Source: Elusimicrobium sp. An273 (GTDB taxonomy: Bacteria; Elusimicrobiota; Elusimicrobia; Elusimicrobiales; Elusimicrobiaceae). From it: a DNA stretch of 64,000 nucleotides. The translations under genes and the position numbers were made by a program. The number at the start of each line of letters is the position of its first letter. The stretch's first letter is position 1. Below, in pieces: positions 31,915 through 40,065 of the stretch. The stretch covers positions 124,001 through 188,000 of the forward strand of contig NZ_NFJD01000001.1 in assembly GCF_002159705.1 (NCBI RefSeq), given 5' to 3'. Below the pieces are notes generated by a model. It worked only from the letters and a program-made list of their open reading frames with translations, was not told where the DNA came from and did no database searches.

Positions 31915-32484
31915 TTATTGTGCCTCTTTCATCTGTTCAATATAGTTGGATGCAATGGTATTAAAAAACAGCGTGCAGGTGGACTGGCCCACATCGTTGG
32001 CGGAGCGTTCGCTGAGCATGCAGCGCACTTCAATATCCGAAAGCGGATTGACCGCCCCCACACTGCTCATGGCGTACGTAAAACCCACCGGGCGGTATTT
32101 TTTAAGCGCCACCGTGTAGGCTTGATCCAACGCTTTTTGGAAAACCGCCATTTCCTTGCGCGAGGCCGAAGGCCCTAATTTAAATTTATGCGCCGCTACA
32201 TTTACCACCACATCGCCGTAATTTCCATAGGTGCTGGCGATATTTTCAGACGTAAAATCTTCATCTTCGCTCAGCGGCTGCCCCGGCTGGGCGTTTTCGT
32301 CCGCGCCGGCCAGCACGGAAGGATCCGTGGGAATATCGGAGGTAAATTCATAGTACACTTCATTTCCCGGGTAGCGGGAATAATCAATCCCCTGGGTTAC
32401 TTTTTTGCGGGAGCGAAAGTCCGTGGTGCTGCAGGCACACACAAACACCGCCAACAATAAAGTGATCACGAAACGAGTCTTCAT
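31915..32484 (-). CDS. Hypothetical lipoprotein
   Basis: 189 residues from the ATG at 32484 (GGAGC 7-8 bases upstream). A type II signal peptide, MKTRFVITLLLAVFVCAC, has a lipobox FVCAC with the modified Cys at position 18. No known domain is recognised. The mature part looks globular and mixed alpha/beta, with two Cys near the C-terminus (EVRCMLSERSANDVGQSTCTLFFNTIA) that could form a disulfide. The ATG overlaps the ispDF stop (ATGA), so it is co-expressed with ispDF and cysS. An outer-membrane or periplasmic role is likely, but the function is unknown. Confidence 0.78.
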   Translation of the reverse strand: MKTRFVITLLLAVFVCACSTTDFRSRKKVTQGIDYSRYPGNEVYYEFTSDIPTDPSVLAGADENAQPGQPLSEDEDFTSENIASTYGNYGDVVVNVAAHKFKLGPSASRKEMAVFQKALDQAYTVALKKYRPVGFTYAMSSVGAVNPLSDIEVRCMLSERSANDVGQSTCTLFFNTIASNYIEQMKEAQ

Positions 32485-33632
32485 AAGCTGCTCCTTAATT
32501 TTAATGTAGCCACGGCCTGGCACATGGCCGCTTCGCCGCGGCCGATTTCGCCCACGTGTTCGTGGCTTTTTGATTTAAAACTCACGCGTTCCACCGGCAT
32601 TTCAAACACCTTGGCCAGCGAGTGACGCACCGCGTCGTAATGCGGTTTCATTTTGGGTTCTTGGGTTATGATGGTGGCGTCTATATGGTCAATTTCCGCG
32701 TGGTGCGCGCGGACGATTTCCAACACTTTTTTGGCAATCGTCACGCTGGAAATGCCTTTAATGGAATCATCCGTTGGCGGGAACAAAATACCGATTTCGC
32801 CCGCACACAACGCGCCCAAAACAGCATCGCACAGAGCGTGCAGCACCAAATCCCCGTCGCTATGGCCCAAAAAGCCCTTCGTGTGCGGAATTTCCACCCC
32901 GCCCACATACAATTTCCGCCCCGGTTCCAGGCGGTGCAAATCAAAACCAAATCCGGTTCGGTACACCGTTTTTTCTTCTACAAGCGCCTCCGCAAACACC
33001 AAGTCTTCCGGCGTGGTAATTTTATTGTTTTTATAATCAGACGGCACCAAATGCACCGCAACGCCCGTTTTTTCCACCAGCTGCGATTCGTCGGTGGCGT
33101 CTTTTTTCTGGCCAAACTGCTCTAGGGCGCGGGCCAGCACTTCCCGGCGGTAGCATTGCGGCGTTTGGGCCGCCCATAACACGGAGCGGTCTAACGTCTT
33201 TTCCACAACGCCGTTTTGGCCCACTTTAATGGTATCTTTTACCGGTACGGCCAGCACCGCCGCGCCAAACTGCAGGGCCGCCTGCAAACATTGTTCAATA
33301 TGCTGCGGGTTGACCAGCGGGCGGGCGCCGTCGTGCACGGCGATTGTTTGCGCCGCCGCAGACGTTTGGGCAAAGCCGTTTTTGACCGATTCCAACCGGG
33401 TATCCCCGGGGTCTGCATAGATTAAATCCGTAAAATACTTATTTAATTCCGCACGGTTTTCCGGCGGGGTAACCACTACAATTTCCCGAACGTCGGGGCA
33501 TTTTTGAAAGGCTTCTATCGTACGAACCAAAACGGGTTTTCCTCCAAGCGGCAGCATTTGTTTGGGGCGGCCCATTCGTTTGCCGCTTCCCCCCGCTACC
33601 AACACCGCTGAAGAAAAACCCGTCCGATTCAT
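32481..33632 (-). CDS. ispDF: Bifunctional IspD/IspF (MEP isoprenoid pathway)
   Basis: 383 residues from the ATG at 33632 (AAGG upstream; a TTG at 33659 is possible but weaker). The N-terminal half is IspD, 2-C-methyl-D-erythritol 4-phosphate cytidylyltransferase: VLVAGGSGKRMGRPKQMLPLGGKPVL, AVHDGARPLV and ATDESQLVE. The C-terminal half is IspF, MEcPP synthase: GFGFDLHRLEPGRKLYVGGVEIPHTKGFLGHSDGDLVLHALCDAVLGAL in outline (DxH metal ligands and the HSDGD block) and SHEHVGEIGRGEAAMCQAVA. The two catalyse steps 3 and 5 of isoprenoid precursor synthesis. It lies between the PIN-TRAM gene and a lipoprotein. Confidence 0.96.
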   Translation of the reverse strand: MNRTGFSSAVLVAGGSGKRMGRPKQMLPLGGKPVLVRTIEAFQKCPDVREIVVVTPPENRAELNKYFTDLIYADPGDTRLESVKNGFAQTSAAAQTIAVHDGARPLVNPQHIEQCLQAALQFGAAVLAVPVKDTIKVGQNGVVEKTLDRSVLWAAQTPQCYRREVLARALEQFGQKKDATDESQLVEKTGVAVHLVPSDYKNNKITTPEDLVFAEALVEEKTVYRTGFGFDLHRLEPGRKLYVGGVEIPHTKGFLGHSDGDLVLHALCDAVLGALCAGEIGILFPPTDDSIKGISSVTIAKKVLEIVRAHHAEIDHIDATIITQEPKMKPHYDAVRHSLAKVFEMPVERVSFKSKSHEHVGEIGRGEAAMCQAVATLKLRSSL

Positions 33633-33642
33633 GTACAAAGCC

Positions 33643-34590
33643 TTATTTAATTTTGGCAAAAATCATCCGGCCAGAAGACGTTTGCAAAATGGAATAAACG
33701 GATACTTCCGCCCGTTTGCCGATGTATTTGCGTCCGTCCTCCACCACGACCATTGTTCCGTCGTCCAAGTAGCCGATGCCCTGTTCTTTTTCTTTGCCGT
33801 CTTTCATAATAAACAGCGACATGCTTTCCCCCGGCAGCACTACCGGTTTTAAGGCGGTGGCCAAGTCGGCAATGTTCAAGGCAATTACGTCGTGCAAGGC
33901 GGCGATTTTGTTGACGTTAAAATCCAGGGTAACCACTTCCGCGTCCAGGCTTTTGGCCAGTTTTACCACGCGTTCTTCCATCGTGTCGGCTTTGGGCGTT
34001 TTGGAAGTAACCCGCACGGCAATTTCGCTCAGCTCCCGCAGGCGCGCCGCCACGTCCAGCCCGCGCCGTCCTTTGGCGCGTTCCAGCGGGTCTTTGGAGG
34101 CCGCCATTTTGTTCAGCTCGTCTAATACGAAAACCGGCAGCACGATAATGCCGGAGAGAAAATTAATTTCGCACAAATCTACGATGCGCCCGTCCATCAG
34201 CGCCGTTACGTCGGCTACTTTCAAATGGTGCCCGGTGTAGGAAAGCCCTTCCAAATCGCGCGATTTAATCAGGCTCGCAATGACGCCGAATATGATGAGG
34301 CCGATTTCAATGTCGCGCCCGTACGTCATCCAAAAGTTCATTACGTCCGCTTCGGCGAAATGAATCATGCCGTAGTCAAAAAACACATACAGCATATACC
34401 CCAGCAAAAAGCCGGAGCAGGCAATCATAATTTTAATCAGGCGCAGGCGTTTAAACAGCACTTCGCCCCCCACCACCAGCGCGCCGCACAGCAGGCCCGC
34501 CAACAGGCTCATCCATTCTTTATCGATAAAATTGTACGTCAGAAAAGGAAAAGCCACCAACGTGGAAATACGGAAAATCCAAATAGGCAT
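33643..34590 (-). CDS. YacL-type membrane PIN-TRAM protein
   Basis: 315 residues. Four N-terminal membrane helices span about residues 5-110. A PIN nuclease domain (about 125-230) shows acidic residues in VADVTALMDGRIVDLC, VLDELNKMA, KGRRGLDV and VVTLDFNVNK. A C-terminal TRAM RNA-binding domain (GESMSLFIMKDGKEKEQGIGYLDDGTMVVVEDGRKYIGK) completes it. This matches the YacL family of B. subtilis. It may cleave or bind RNA at the membrane. Gene order radA, PIN-TRAM, ispDF, cysS recalls the radA-disA-yacL-ispD-ispF-gltX-cysE-cysS cluster of Firmicutes. GGAGGG precedes the ATG. Confidence 0.9.
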   Translation of the reverse strand: MPIWIFRISTLVAFPFLTYNFIDKEWMSLLAGLLCGALVVGGEVLFKRLRLIKIMIACSGFLLGYMLYVFFDYGMIHFAEADVMNFWMTYGRDIEIGLIIFGVIASLIKSRDLEGLSYTGHHLKVADVTALMDGRIVDLCEINFLSGIIVLPVFVLDELNKMAASKDPLERAKGRRGLDVAARLRELSEIAVRVTSKTPKADTMEERVVKLAKSLDAEVVTLDFNVNKIAALHDVIALNIADLATALKPVVLPGESMSLFIMKDGKEKEQGIGYLDDGTMVVVEDGRKYIGKRAEVSVYSILQTSSGRMIFAKIK

Positions 34591-36077: not shown

Positions 36078-37370
36078 TCACGAGCCGGCCATAGCGGCCA
36101 GGCCAAAGAAAGACGAAATATCTTGGTCGTTAAACGAGATGTTGGCCTTGACGGCAAAATCGTTGGTTTCCAGCACGTCGCGCGCCCAGGCACCCACCGA
36201 GAAGTAGCGGTTGAAGCGGAAGTCTACCCCGTAGGTTAAATTCGGTTTGTTAAACAGACGCCCGTTGATGACGCGGTCGCGCCCCCAGTCGGAAAACTCG
36301 CCCGTGAAGGTGAAGCGTTCCAAAAATTCTTTGTCATAGAACGGCTTGAGCTCCAGCGCCACGCCGCCAGCACCGCGGATTAAGCCCGCCGATATGGTGG
36401 CCCACTTGTTGTACAAGCCGAAGCGCACGTCAAACTGGTTCTTTTCCAAATAGTCTTTAGCGTCTAAGCGGTCGTCCTCGTTGCCGATATTGGCAATACC
36501 GGCGCGGTAGAAGGTATAACCGCTGGAAGGATAAATTTCAAGCGCCAGGTCGCTTGTAGCCAGGGCCGGGCCCGGCATATAGAAGAAATCATAATCCCAA
36601 TACACGCGGAAGCGGCTCATTTTGCCTACAAACGTTTTAACTTCGCCCATGGTTTCTTTCAAATCTTTCACGCTGTCCTTCACGTCTTCCTTCATCTGCG
36701 GGTCTTTAATCAAACTGCCGATTACCCCTTCCCCCTGCTCCAAGCTGTTCATCAGCGAGTCGGCCTTGGCCATTAAATCATTTAATTTGGCGGAAGCGAC
36801 GTCCAAGTTCTGTACCGAGCGCGAAAGATACGGCCGCATCTGCGCCACCAGCTGGTTTAAATTGGCCGACAGCTGCCGGACTTCGTGCATCGTCTGGTTT
36901 AATTTTTCGCCGAACTGGCCTTGATTGTTGACGCTGTCCACAAACTCTTTAATGCTGCTCATGGTTTTGGTAATCATCACGTCCATGGGCATTTCGTCCG
37001 CGCCGCGCACCAAGGCGCCGGGTTTTAATACGCCCGCCGCAGGCGTGCCTTGTTCCACCTTCAGGTATTTCGTGCCGATAATCCCCGTCATCACTACGCT
37101 GAACCGGGCATCACGGAAAATTTCCACCCCTTCGTGAATATCCGCCACCACAACGGCCTGGCCTTTTTCAATGCGGATGTGGCGCACGCGGCCCACTTCC
37201 ACGCCGGAAAGTTTCACGGGCGCTTTGACGGGCAGGCCGGACACGTCTTCAAACGCCACGTTAATCTCATACGAACGCGTGACGGAAAGACCCCCTAAAA
37301 AATACAGGGAAAATCCAAAAATTACAATCCCCAATACGGTAAAAATGCCTAATTTGGTTTCTGGTTTCAT
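36078..37370 (-). CDS. mlaD: MlaD-type MCE protein with C-terminal beta-rich (outer-membrane barrel-like) domain
   Basis: 430 residues. A membrane helix at about 8-28 is followed by one MCE domain (about 36-115; FEDVSGLPVKAPVKLSGVEVGRV, IIGTKYLKVEQG). Next is a long helical region with coiled-coil character (about 130-250; NLNQLVAQMRPYLSRSVQNLD, DPQMKEDVKDSVKDLKETMGEVK). The last 170 residues (about 255-430) are rich in alternating aromatic/polar beta strands and Gly/Asp turns, such as FRVYWDYDFFYM, YTFYRAGIA and LTYGVDFRFNRYFSVGAWAR. E. coli MlaD ends after about 180 residues. A fused barrel of this kind is known from the Veillonella parvula Mla system. It would bridge inner and outer membranes for lipid transport. 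Confidence 0.87.
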   Translation of the reverse strand: MKPETKLGIFTVLGIVIFGFSLYFLGGLSVTRSYEINVAFEDVSGLPVKAPVKLSGVEVGRVRHIRIEKGQAVVVADIHEGVEIFRDARFSVVMTGIIGTKYLKVEQGTPAAGVLKPGALVRGADEMPMDVMITKTMSSIKEFVDSVNNQGQFGEKLNQTMHEVRQLSANLNQLVAQMRPYLSRSVQNLDVASAKLNDLMAKADSLMNSLEQGEGVIGSLIKDPQMKEDVKDSVKDLKETMGEVKTFVGKMSRFRVYWDYDFFYMPGPALATSDLALEIYPSSGYTFYRAGIANIGNEDDRLDAKDYLEKNQFDVRFGLYNKWATISAGLIRGAGGVALELKPFYDKEFLERFTFTGEFSDWGRDRVINGRLFNKPNLTYGVDFRFNRYFSVGAWARDVLETNDFAVKANISFNDQDISSFFGLAAMAGS

Positions 37371-37416: not shown

Positions 37417-38181
37417 TCAGTCTTTCATCAATTTCATTTGTATCGGCCCGTGGCTGCTGCCGGTTACAAATTGTTTGACATACGGATTATCGGTGTGTTT
37501 AAATTCTTCCGGCGTGCCGTACATCAAAATATCCCCTTCGTACAGAAAGGCAATATAGTCTGCTATCTTAAAAGCCGAGTGCATGTCGTGCGTAATGACG
37601 ACCGACGTTACCCCCAGTTTGGCTTTCAAATCCATAATTAAATCGCTGATAATGTCCGACATAATCGGATCCAGCCCGGTGGTGGGCTCGTCGTACAAAA
37701 TCACCTGCGGCTCCACCGCCAGCACGCGCGCCAGCGCCACGCGCTTTTTCATTCCGCCGGAAAGCTCGCTGGGGTTGAGTTTGGCCACGTCTTCCTGCAG
37801 GCCCACCAACGCCAGTTTTTCTTTGCTCACGGCCGGGTAATCTTTCTCCGGCGTGTCCGTCAAGTATTTCAGCCCGAACGTTACGTTTTCGCCCACGGTC
37901 ATCGAGTCAAACAGCGCCCCTTCCTGAAACAAATACCCAAACCGCCGGCGCAGAGCCGCCAGTTTGATTTCGCTGCGGATTTTGGTAATGTCTTTTCCCC
38001 CTACCAAAATTTGCCCGCCCGTGGCCTGTTCCAAACCGATTAGGCATTTAATCAGCGTGCTTTTGCCCGAGCCGGAACCGCCCAAAATACAGGTCGTTTT
38101 GCCTTCCTCTATTTTCAGGTTGACGTTTTTTAACACTTCTTTCGTTCCGAAACTCTTTTTAAGCCCGATGATTTCAATCAT
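37417..38181 (-). CDS. mlaF: MlaF, ATP-binding protein of the Mla lipid transporter
   Basis: 254 residues. Walker A GGSGSGKST, Q-loop YLFQEGALFDSMTV, signature LSGGMKKRVALARVLA and Walker B VILYDEPTTGLDPIMSD, in the MlaF/Ttg2A order and length. It pairs with MlaE to power lipid movement between membranes. I used the ATG at 38181; a TTG at 38193 is open but unlikely. The MlaE stop lies immediately upstream (TAA then T then ATG). It precedes mlaD by 46 bases. Confidence 0.96.
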   Translation of the reverse strand: MIEIIGLKKSFGTKEVLKNVNLKIEEGKTTCILGGSGSGKSTLIKCLIGLEQATGGQILVGGKDITKIRSEIKLAALRRRFGYLFQEGALFDSMTVGENVTFGLKYLTDTPEKDYPAVSKEKLALVGLQEDVAKLNPSELSGGMKKRVALARVLAVEPQVILYDEPTTGLDPIMSDIISDLIMDLKAKLGVTSVVITHDMHSAFKIADYIAFLYEGDILMYGTPEEFKHTDNPYVKQFVTGSSHGPIQMKLMKD

Positions 38182-38182
38182 A

Positions 38183-38959
38183 TTAAATTCCAAACGCCGT
38201 CAGAATAGCGGTTAAGAAATAATCCAGCACCAAAATAAGCACAATGGTGGTTACCACCGCGCCGGTGGTGGACTTGCCCACCCCCTCGGCCCCGCCGCGG
38301 GTGCTGATGCCTTTGTAGCAGCACACCGTGGCCACCATAAACGCAAACACAAACGTTTTGATAAACCCGTGCATAAAATCCCGCACGCCCATAAACGACG
38401 TAATATCCGTGATATACACTTCGCCGGCAATGCCCAGCGCATACACCGCCACCAGATATCCGCCCAACACGCCGAACAAATTGGAAAAAAGCGTCAAAAT
38501 AGGCATGGTCAGCATAAACCCGAACATCCGCGGAATAACCAAATAGCGGATGGGGTTGGTGCCTAAGGTATACAGGGCGTCAATCTGCTCGGTAACGGCC
38601 ATGGTGCCAATCTGCGCCGTTACGGCGGCGCCCGCCCGGCCGGACACAACCACACTGGTCAGCACGGGGCCCAGCTCGCGGATTAACGAAAAGGTTACAA
38701 TCGTTCCCACAAAAATCGGTTCGCCAAAAATGTTGCCAATGGTATTGCCCGCCTGCAGCGCAAGCACCATCCCGGTAAACAAGCTCGTCAGCGCCGTAAC
38801 GCCCAAGGATTCCACCCCGATGGTTACGCTCTGGTCTACCGCCTGGCGAAACTCAAACCGCGAATGCGTCAGCCAAAACAGGCTGGAGCGCACCATTTGG
38901 GCGGCTCCGCCGATTTGGTCAAACATACGGGTCATATACGTTCCGATGGCGGTAAACAT
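38183..38959 (-). CDS. mlaE: MlaE family lipid ABC transporter permease
   Basis: 258 residues with five to six membrane helices. MlaE family motifs are SLGVTALTSLFTGMVLALQAG, IRELGPVLTSVVVSGRAGAAVTAQIGTMAVTEQIDAL in outline (the E-x-G-P-V-L-T and GRxGAxxxAExG blocks) and the C-terminal GGAEGVGKSTTGAVVTTIVLILV. It forms the membrane core with MlaF and receives MlaD. I used the ATG at 38959, which overlaps the alr stop (TAATG), not the longer frame to 39004. No mlaA, mlaB or mlaC is present in the window. Confidence 0.95.
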   Translation of the reverse strand: MFTAIGTYMTRMFDQIGGAAQMVRSSLFWLTHSRFEFRQAVDQSVTIGVESLGVTALTSLFTGMVLALQAGNTIGNIFGEPIFVGTIVTFSLIRELGPVLTSVVVSGRAGAAVTAQIGTMAVTEQIDALYTLGTNPIRYLVIPRMFGFMLTMPILTLFSNLFGVLGGYLVAVYALGIAGEVYITDITSFMGVRDFMHGFIKTFVFAFMVATVCCYKGISTRGGAEGVGKSTTGAVVTTIVLILVLDYFLTAILTAFGI

Positions 38960-40065
38960 TATTCTTTGTAAATCCTCGGCACGCGCGGCATTAACAGCGT
39001 GCACAGTTCGTAATCAATGGTTCCGGCTTTTTGGGCCAGTTCGGCAAAGGTAACTTCTTCGTCTCCCTGGCGGCCGACGGCCACGGCTTCATCGCCCACG
39101 GTTACCGGGCCCGCTTGGGTAATGTCCACCATCAGCATATCCATGGTAACGTTTCCCAGCACCCGGCAGCGTTTGCCGCGGATTAAAATTTCGCCTTTAT
39201 TGGACAGGGCGCGCAGGTAGCCGTCCCCATACCCTAAGGGGAGCGTGGCCACTTTCATCGGGCGCGGCGCAATAAAACTGCGGTTATAGCTGATGCTGCT
39301 GCCAGCCGGCACGTCTTTTACATACACTACCCGGGTTTTTAAAGACAAAATAGGCTCAAAGCCTTTTTCCAGCCCAAAAGCGCTGTGGCCGGTGCGCACC
39401 ATATCGTAGCGCACATCGGGCCGGGCCACAATGGCGGCCGACGCTGCCACATGGCAATGATTAATATGAATATGGTGCAGCTGGACATTGGTCAGCGTGT
39501 CGCGGTAGTAGCCGATTTGCTCCTCGGTATAGGCCGGGTCGGTTTCTACGCTGGAGAGGTGGGTATACAGCCCGTCCAGCACCACATGCGGGTCGTGCGC
39601 CAAGAAATCAATCACGTTAAACACGCCGCCGCGGCGGGTGCCGATGCGGCCCATTCCCGTGTCTTGCTTCACGTGGCAGAACGCTTTTTGACCCAGTTTG
39701 GCAGCAATTTGGCTAACAGCTTTGGCCGCGTCCAAACTGGCAATGGTAACCGCCAAGTGGTTTTTAATAGCGTATTCAAATACTTCAAACGGATACAGAC
39801 TGCCCAGCACCAAAATCGGCAGCGTTACGCCCGCCTGGCGCAGGGCAATGCCTTCCTCTACCGAGGCGGTTCCAAAAAAATCGCTCAGGTGGTTTTGCTG
39901 TAGAAAAAGGCCCAGCTTTTCGGCCCCGTGCCCATAGGCATTGGCTTTTAAAACCGTCAGCACTTTCACGCCGGCCCCCGCTTGGGCATGCACTTTGTGC
40001 ATATTGCGGGCCAGCTTTTTTAAATCCACTTCCGCCACTGTTGGGCGTAAAATAGGCATAGACAT
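38959..40065 (-). CDS. alr: Alanine racemase
   Basis: 368 residues. PLP enzyme that makes D-alanine for peptidoglycan. Evidence: VEVDLKKLARN-type start (AEVDLKKLARNMHKVHA), the PLP lysine in TVLKANAYGHG, GRIGTRRGG, then HINHCHVAASAA and the C-terminal SYNRSFIAPRPMKVATLPLGYGDGYLRAL with the catalytic Tyr near VRTGHSAFGL. GGAG lies 6 bases before the ATG. It starts 3 bases after the dnaB stop and ends overlapping mlaE. Confidence 0.95.
   Translation of the reverse strand: MSMPILRPTVAEVDLKKLARNMHKVHAQAGAGVKVLTVLKANAYGHGAEKLGLFLQQNHLSDFFGTASVEEGIALRQAGVTLPILVLGSLYPFEVFEYAIKNHLAVTIASLDAAKAVSQIAAKLGQKAFCHVKQDTGMGRIGTRRGGVFNVIDFLAHDPHVVLDGLYTHLSSVETDPAYTEEQIGYYRDTLTNVQLHHIHINHCHVAASAAIVARPDVRYDMVRTGHSAFGLEKGFEPILSLKTRVVYVKDVPAGSSISYNRSFIAPRPMKVATLPLGYGDGYLRALSNKGEILIRGKRCRVLGNVTMDMLMVDITQAGPVTVGDEAVAVGRQGDEEVTFAELAQKAGTIDYELCTLLMPRVPRIYKE

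Follow-up and report, generated by a model that had tools for sequence, protein, structure and literature searches.

A long MlaD with a predicted C-terminal barrel in the MlaEFD operon of Elusimicrobiota, and exchange of the operon in one family

The window analysed here, a stretch of 64,000 nucleotides from the genome of Elusimicrobium sp. An273 (contig NZ_NFJD01000001.1, positions 124,001 to 188,000), carries mlaE, mlaF and mlaD as neighbours on one strand, the gene set of the Veillonella-type Mla system. Coordinates below are those of the window unless a locus is named.

38183..39004, minus strand: mlaE, permease, 273 aa, GTG start as listed, overlapping the end of alr (PF02405, E 1.7e-74; TIGR00056 above cut-off)
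37417..38193, minus strand: mlaF, ABC ATPase, 258 aa (PF00005, E 4.4e-36; MlaF model NF008809, E 9.8e-59, under cut-off)
36078..37370, minus strand: mlaD, long form, 430 aa, ATG start (PF02470, E 1.1e-14; 49 close relatives)

Read along the minus strand, the genes run dnaB, alr, mlaE, mlaF, mlaD and radA, followed by one for a PIN-domain protein and by ispDF as a fusion, where the names of the non-mla neighbours are our reading of the ORFs, supported for radA by a profile match as well. The fused ispD and ispF form one ORF of 392 aa at 32481-33659. The plus strand across 36078..37370 is broken by stops, and the mlaD frame is not a product of chance, since 49 loci in Elusimicrobia encode MlaD at 66–97% identity, nearly all at full length, and the pattern of its C-terminal domain is kept at mostly 19–42% identity over most of the phylum. 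The close relatives carry the labels Elusimicrobiales, Elusimicrobiaceae and Candidatus Avelusimicrobium. An earlier reading of this DNA from its sequence alone (the sequence-only reading) had described an operon of mlaE, mlaF and mlaD without mlaA, mlaB or mlaC; between alr and radA none of these three genes is present, which bears the description out. It had also proposed a search for MlaA and MlaC in the rest of the genome (1.50 Mb in 14 contigs, 97.8% complete). Neither MlaA (PF04333) nor MlaC (PF05494) gave a match anywhere in that genome, with E. coli and Caulobacter controls positive for both models, and a single PF02470 protein was found in total. TamB (PF04357) likewise had no Pfam match in the window genome, and LptD (PF04453) had none with a model that was positive in just 2 of 14 controls and so says little on LPS.

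The 430 residues of MlaD were expected from the sequence-only reading to run from a membrane helix through an MCE domain and a needle to a separate C-terminal domain, and the ORF, the PF02470 match and AlphaFold2 (AF2) models agree on this order:

37296..37364, minus strand: N-terminal inner-membrane helix, residues 3-25 (hydrophobic sequence; AF2 helix 3-25)
37047..37274, minus strand: MCE domain, residues 33-108 (PF02470, E 1.1e-14; pLDDT mostly >75)
36642..36986, minus strand: helical needle, residues about 129-243, including the conserved GEGVIGSLIKD (AF2 helices 129-243, low confidence)
36126..36620, minus strand: predicted 10-stranded outer-membrane barrel, residues 251-415 (AF2, Foldseek, VIA-align, face alternation in ten strands)
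36081..36125, minus strand: post-barrel tail QDISSFFGLAAMAGS, predicted short helix (alignment; domain-model helix 174-185, low pLDDT)

The full-length AF2 model has a mean pLDDT of 59 and places ten main strands within residues 255-414, with the needle essentially unmodelled. Modelled alone, from an alignment of 47 sequences, the C-terminal domain reaches a mean pLDDT of 72.6 and a pTM of 0.68, and consists of ten antiparallel main strands, two very short loop strands and a low-confidence helix in the tail. The top Foldseek entries for this model are designed and natural transmembrane barrels. In VIA-align the best matches, at Z 13.7–14.6, included 9nh1 (a porin of the Legionella Dot/Icm machine), OpcA (Z 14.3 over 145 residues at 3.2 Å), Pla (Z 14.0) and the designed ten-stranded transmembrane barrel TMB10 (Z 13.7), while nitrobindin, a soluble ten-stranded protein, also matches at a lower Z of about 10.6 over 139 residues. 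The expectation of a barrel-like C-terminus thus held up in the monomer model, which has ten strands with outer-membrane matches and is not helical. The alternating strands that had been noted could be quantified in 30 diverse homologues, where the two faces of the strands differ in their mean content of large hydrophobic residues (0.60 versus 0.25), with almost no difference in the strand 286-297. The resulting alternation of 0.350 compares with 0.199 ± 0.045 when positions in these 30 homologues were shuffled within strands, and 24 of 20,000 shuffles were as high. Invariant positions in the same set include D274, N294, N311, G318, G329, G336 and D415. With the strand limits of the face analysis, loops away from the needle have 5, 11, 2, 15 and 4 residues and those on the needle side 4, 3, 11 and 4, so the modelled loops would fit the long-outside, short-inside rule only roughly. 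An even number of strands would leave both ends of the barrel in the periplasm, as the needle needs. Taken together, the C-terminal domain of MlaD is predicted to be a ten-stranded membrane barrel.

By sequence, the barrel has no match among solved structures and no credible Pfam family, and a plasmid tblastn search for relatives outside the phylum gave just one chance match. A match of 7jwb_D to residues 251-293 (profile positions 252-313) was set aside, as no stretch of it passed alone. Directly after the last barrel strand, at 36078-36128, stands a motif D-x-D-[IL]-x-x-[LF]-[LFI]-G that recurs phylum-wide; D415, just ahead of the tail, and the G of its LLGL/FFGL motif are kept throughout. 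This motif possibly sits at the periplasmic mouth of the barrel.

Across the phylum, PF02470 was present in 141 of 150 sampled genomes, most frames being 394–505 aa long, and 29 long MlaDs from all over the phylum align with the window protein, barrel and D-x-D-[IL] tail included, at 19–72% identity. The barrel form is nearly phylum-wide, in the slot dnaB-alr-[mlaEFD]-radA-PIN-ispDF, and is missing in one clade, the families f11, f12 and f13 (ten genomes), in which uncut MlaD frames are about 270–320 aa; three of these short proteins end in the alignment where the needle ends. The order dnaB-alr-mlaE-mlaF-mlaD-radA was identical in the distant genomes that were read, including one with a short MlaD; at one locus (L092) mlaF was unmatched. 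A split-off barrel gene was considered as an explanation for the short proteins and rejected: a profile of the domain, which did find it in the window genome and in G156, gave no hit in the nine short-clade genomes searched or in G087, G155 and G022. In a tree of the membrane helix and MCE part, built from a small alignment, the short clade branches from among lineages that have the barrel, and members of a family mostly group with one another. On this small alignment it therefore seems likelier that the short clade lost the barrel than that the other lineages gained it late. As a separate observation, G022, a genome of the same genus that is 99% complete, has as its sole PF02470 match a weak one (4.7e-9) and is negative with the barrel profile; its long MlaD may have been lost or may lie in an assembly gap.

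This organization closely resembles the MlaEFD system of Veillonella parvula, a transenvelope system whose MlaD of 419 aa ends in a ten-stranded C-terminal barrel (Grasekamp 2023, PMC10665443). In V. parvula almost every membrane fraction contained full-length MlaD, and the isolated barrel fractionated with the outer membrane (PMC10665443). Both systems have three genes, no MlaA or MlaC, the same domain order, a similar MlaD length (419 versus 430 aa) and ten strands, although the likeness between the two barrels is one of length, order and strand number taken from that paper's description and homology between them is putative. In V. parvula the operon is flanked by tolC and tamB, and TamB acts as a genetic antagonist (PMC10665443), whereas alr and radA flank it here and TamB was not detected. 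The conserved tail motif after the last strand of the window MlaD was seen within the Elusimicrobiota alignment. The match to a reduced Mla system of the V. parvula type, as the sequence-only reading had it, is thus supported by size, domain order and strand number, and the design itself was already known from Veillonella. That its presence in a distant phylum would back an ancestral design also agrees with our results, but adds little, because a survey of 1083 genomes had already argued that MlaEFD is ancestral (PMC10665443). That survey found barrels in just about 10% of MlaDs, with the barrel form widespread in diderm Terrabacteria, in some Proteobacteria and in related phyla, and missing in PVC and FCB; its main text does not mention Elusimicrobia by name.

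Other MCE systems share parts of this design. The E. coli Mla system (MlaFEDB, MlaC and MlaA-OmpC) has MlaE, MlaF and the MCE domain in common with the window system, but its MlaD has 183 aa, without needle or barrel, against 430 aa here, and MlaC ferries lipid between MlaA and MlaFEDB; neither MlaA nor MlaC was found in the window genome, which thus does not show the E. coli-type combination of short MlaD, MlaA and MlaC. No fused barrel is known in Mpc of Brucella abortus. Mpc is a chimeric Mla-Pqi MCE-type transporter proposed to bridge both membranes (PMC12436622) and differs from the window system in mixing Mla and Pqi components. PqiB, LetB (YebT) and mycobacterial Mce1, whose chains the MCE part of the window protein matches by sequence, likewise combine an MCE ring with a long helical or stacked periplasmic tunnel, but are not known to have a ten-stranded barrel on each chain (PMC10665443).

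We consider it very probable that the operon encodes a Veillonella-type MlaEFD lipid transporter that bridges the two membranes with its barrels as anchors. By analogy with the characterized systems, a single MlaD protein probably spans the whole cell envelope and moves lipids between the membranes. As in the solved MlaFEDB, N-terminal helices and an MCE ring would dock six MlaD chains onto dimeric MlaE and MlaF in the inner membrane, and the needles would build a hydrophobic helical tunnel through the periplasm, as in PqiB, Mce1 and V. parvula; the hexameric bridge is read from homology to V. parvula MlaD. The C-terminal end of every chain would be a separate ten-stranded barrel, predicted from the fold and presumably inserted in the outer membrane. 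The barrels would most likely be anchors, fixing the mouth of the tunnel at the outer membrane, and not pores, given their small size, an argument of the Veillonella authors, who regard a ten-stranded barrel as too narrow for lipid (PMC10665443). Phospholipid would then run along the tunnel without MlaA or MlaC, probably driven by MlaF and leaving the outer membrane for the inner one, a retrograde direction taken from V. parvula phenotypes.

A different placement of the C-terminal domain is conceivable, namely that it is a soluble barrel of the calycin or nitrobindin kind, binding lipid in the periplasm at the tip of the needle and never entering the outer membrane. The nitrobindin match (Z about 10.6 over 139 residues) and the moderate confidence of the barrel model would allow for this, and alternating faces are expected in such a protein too. 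Outer-membrane barrels nevertheless score clearly higher (Z 13.7–14.6) and dominate the Foldseek list, D, N, G, R and E residues that are invariant or nearly so sit on the polar face, like the network inside outer-membrane barrels, and the V. parvula counterpart localizes to the outer membrane (PMC10665443), so that we regard a soluble barrel as unlikely. More improbable still is that MlaD serves as a tether without a lipid tunnel, its barrels and needle merely setting the spacing of the envelope. That the barrels are too narrow for lipid (PMC10665443) would suit a tether, as would the barrel-less clade, which retains the operon in the same slot and so indicates that the barrel is dispensable for the job of MlaEF. 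The loci read, however, have MlaE and MlaF together with MlaD in that slot, the MCE domain is that of a family of lipid transporters in which structures have been solved, and the exclusion between mlaEFD and mlaA-mlaC-RND genes described below fits lipid transport better. A lipid-transporting bridge remains our preferred reading.

In one family the slot between alr and radA holds other genes. MlaA was found in a single one of the 150 sampled genomes, G087, together with MlaC and without PF02470, and here the slot contains mlaA, mlaC and a gene for an MMPL/RND protein of 832 aa. The whole family of G087, from the same class, comprises eight genomes, with MlaA in six and PF02470 in two. By tblastn, mlaA-mlaC-RND occupies the slot in four genomes (G087, G154, G152 and G151), and in G150, where a contig ends inside the RND gene, the adjoining radA shows that this gene too lies in the slot. 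G153 has mlaA alone in the slot and a divergent MCE set elsewhere. In G155 alr is followed directly by radA, and mlaA-mlaC-RND lies elsewhere, while in G156 the slot holds mlaE, mlaF and a long mlaD, and no MlaA was found. Representative loci are as follows:

L086:5458-9440: mlaA-mlaC-RND (MMPL) in the slot; L102, L106 and L108 have the same slot
L103:6512-10511: mlaA-mlaC-RND away from the slot (G155)
L117:5913-8344: empty slot (G155)

Among the genomes found, no MlaA carrier has mlaEFD in the slot, an exclusion that rests on one family, not on many independent cases, and includes some genomes less than 90% complete. Chimeric or contaminated contigs were considered as a source of the odd slots and rejected, as radA (8 genomes) and dnaB (7 genomes) group by genus as expected; G155 groups with G156 in both trees (79% in radA). 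At least one independent exchange event, perhaps two, would account for the pattern.

Such an exclusion is expected if both gene sets do the same job, and it suggests that bridge and shuttle are interchangeable. It is quite possible, if somewhat short of probable, that MlaA and MlaC with an RND/MMPL pump form a complete lipid system, free of MCE and ABC components, that replaced the one-protein bridge in its slot in this family and is functionally interchangeable with it. A slightly more doubtful account is that the exchange is a coincidence at a recombination-prone spot, the mlaA-mlaC-RND cassette having another job. All cases do come from one family of eight genomes and may reflect one or two events, G153 is left with mlaA alone in its slot, and in Campylobacter jejuni mlaA-mlaC coexist with mlaEFD, from which they stand apart; there, too, an RND gene presumably follows mlaA-mlaC. 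Coincidence sits less well with the failure to find any MlaA carrier with the slot mlaEFD, and with G155, whose cassette lies away from its empty slot, as though loss of mlaEFD tracks the cassette whatever its location. MlaA and MlaC are moreover known partners in one pathway.

How phospholipid crosses the periplasm in bacteria without MlaA or MlaC is an open question, and there is dispute over the direction in which Mla transports lipid. One more phylum with the bridge form, a clade whose MlaD lacks the barrel and a family in which the whole operon was exchanged offer a natural series for testing the roles of barrel and needle. If the exchange means that the two gene sets are equal in function, the bridge would be linked directly to the pathway of MlaA and MlaC, with the RND pump as an alternative motor. 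While the bridge design was known from Veillonella, the in-slot exchange is apparently unreported: we found no earlier report of it in a search of mostly open literature with few subscription papers, nothing relevant on MlaC with MMPL or RND partners, and no paper treating both Elusimicrobia and lipid asymmetry.

Some further gene sets were observed. At L107:999-3963 (G151) a second mlaA stands immediately before a divergent RND gene (37% identity), and no mlaC match lies in between. A further case in the phylum of MlaC near an RND gene is L089:893-5861 (G085), where MlaC is followed by a TolC-looking ORF of 446 aa, an MMPL/RND protein and an ORF of 204 aa. Some relatives of the same genus carry a second MCE set (L121:4877-8075 in G099; L122:5168-8363 in G025). 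Its members are an MlaE of 360 aa that is extended at the N-terminus, an ABC ATPase, an MlaD of 263 aa and an auxiliary PF03886 lipoprotein (PqiC-like), and the set looks nearer to the Brucella Mpc kind (PMC12436622).
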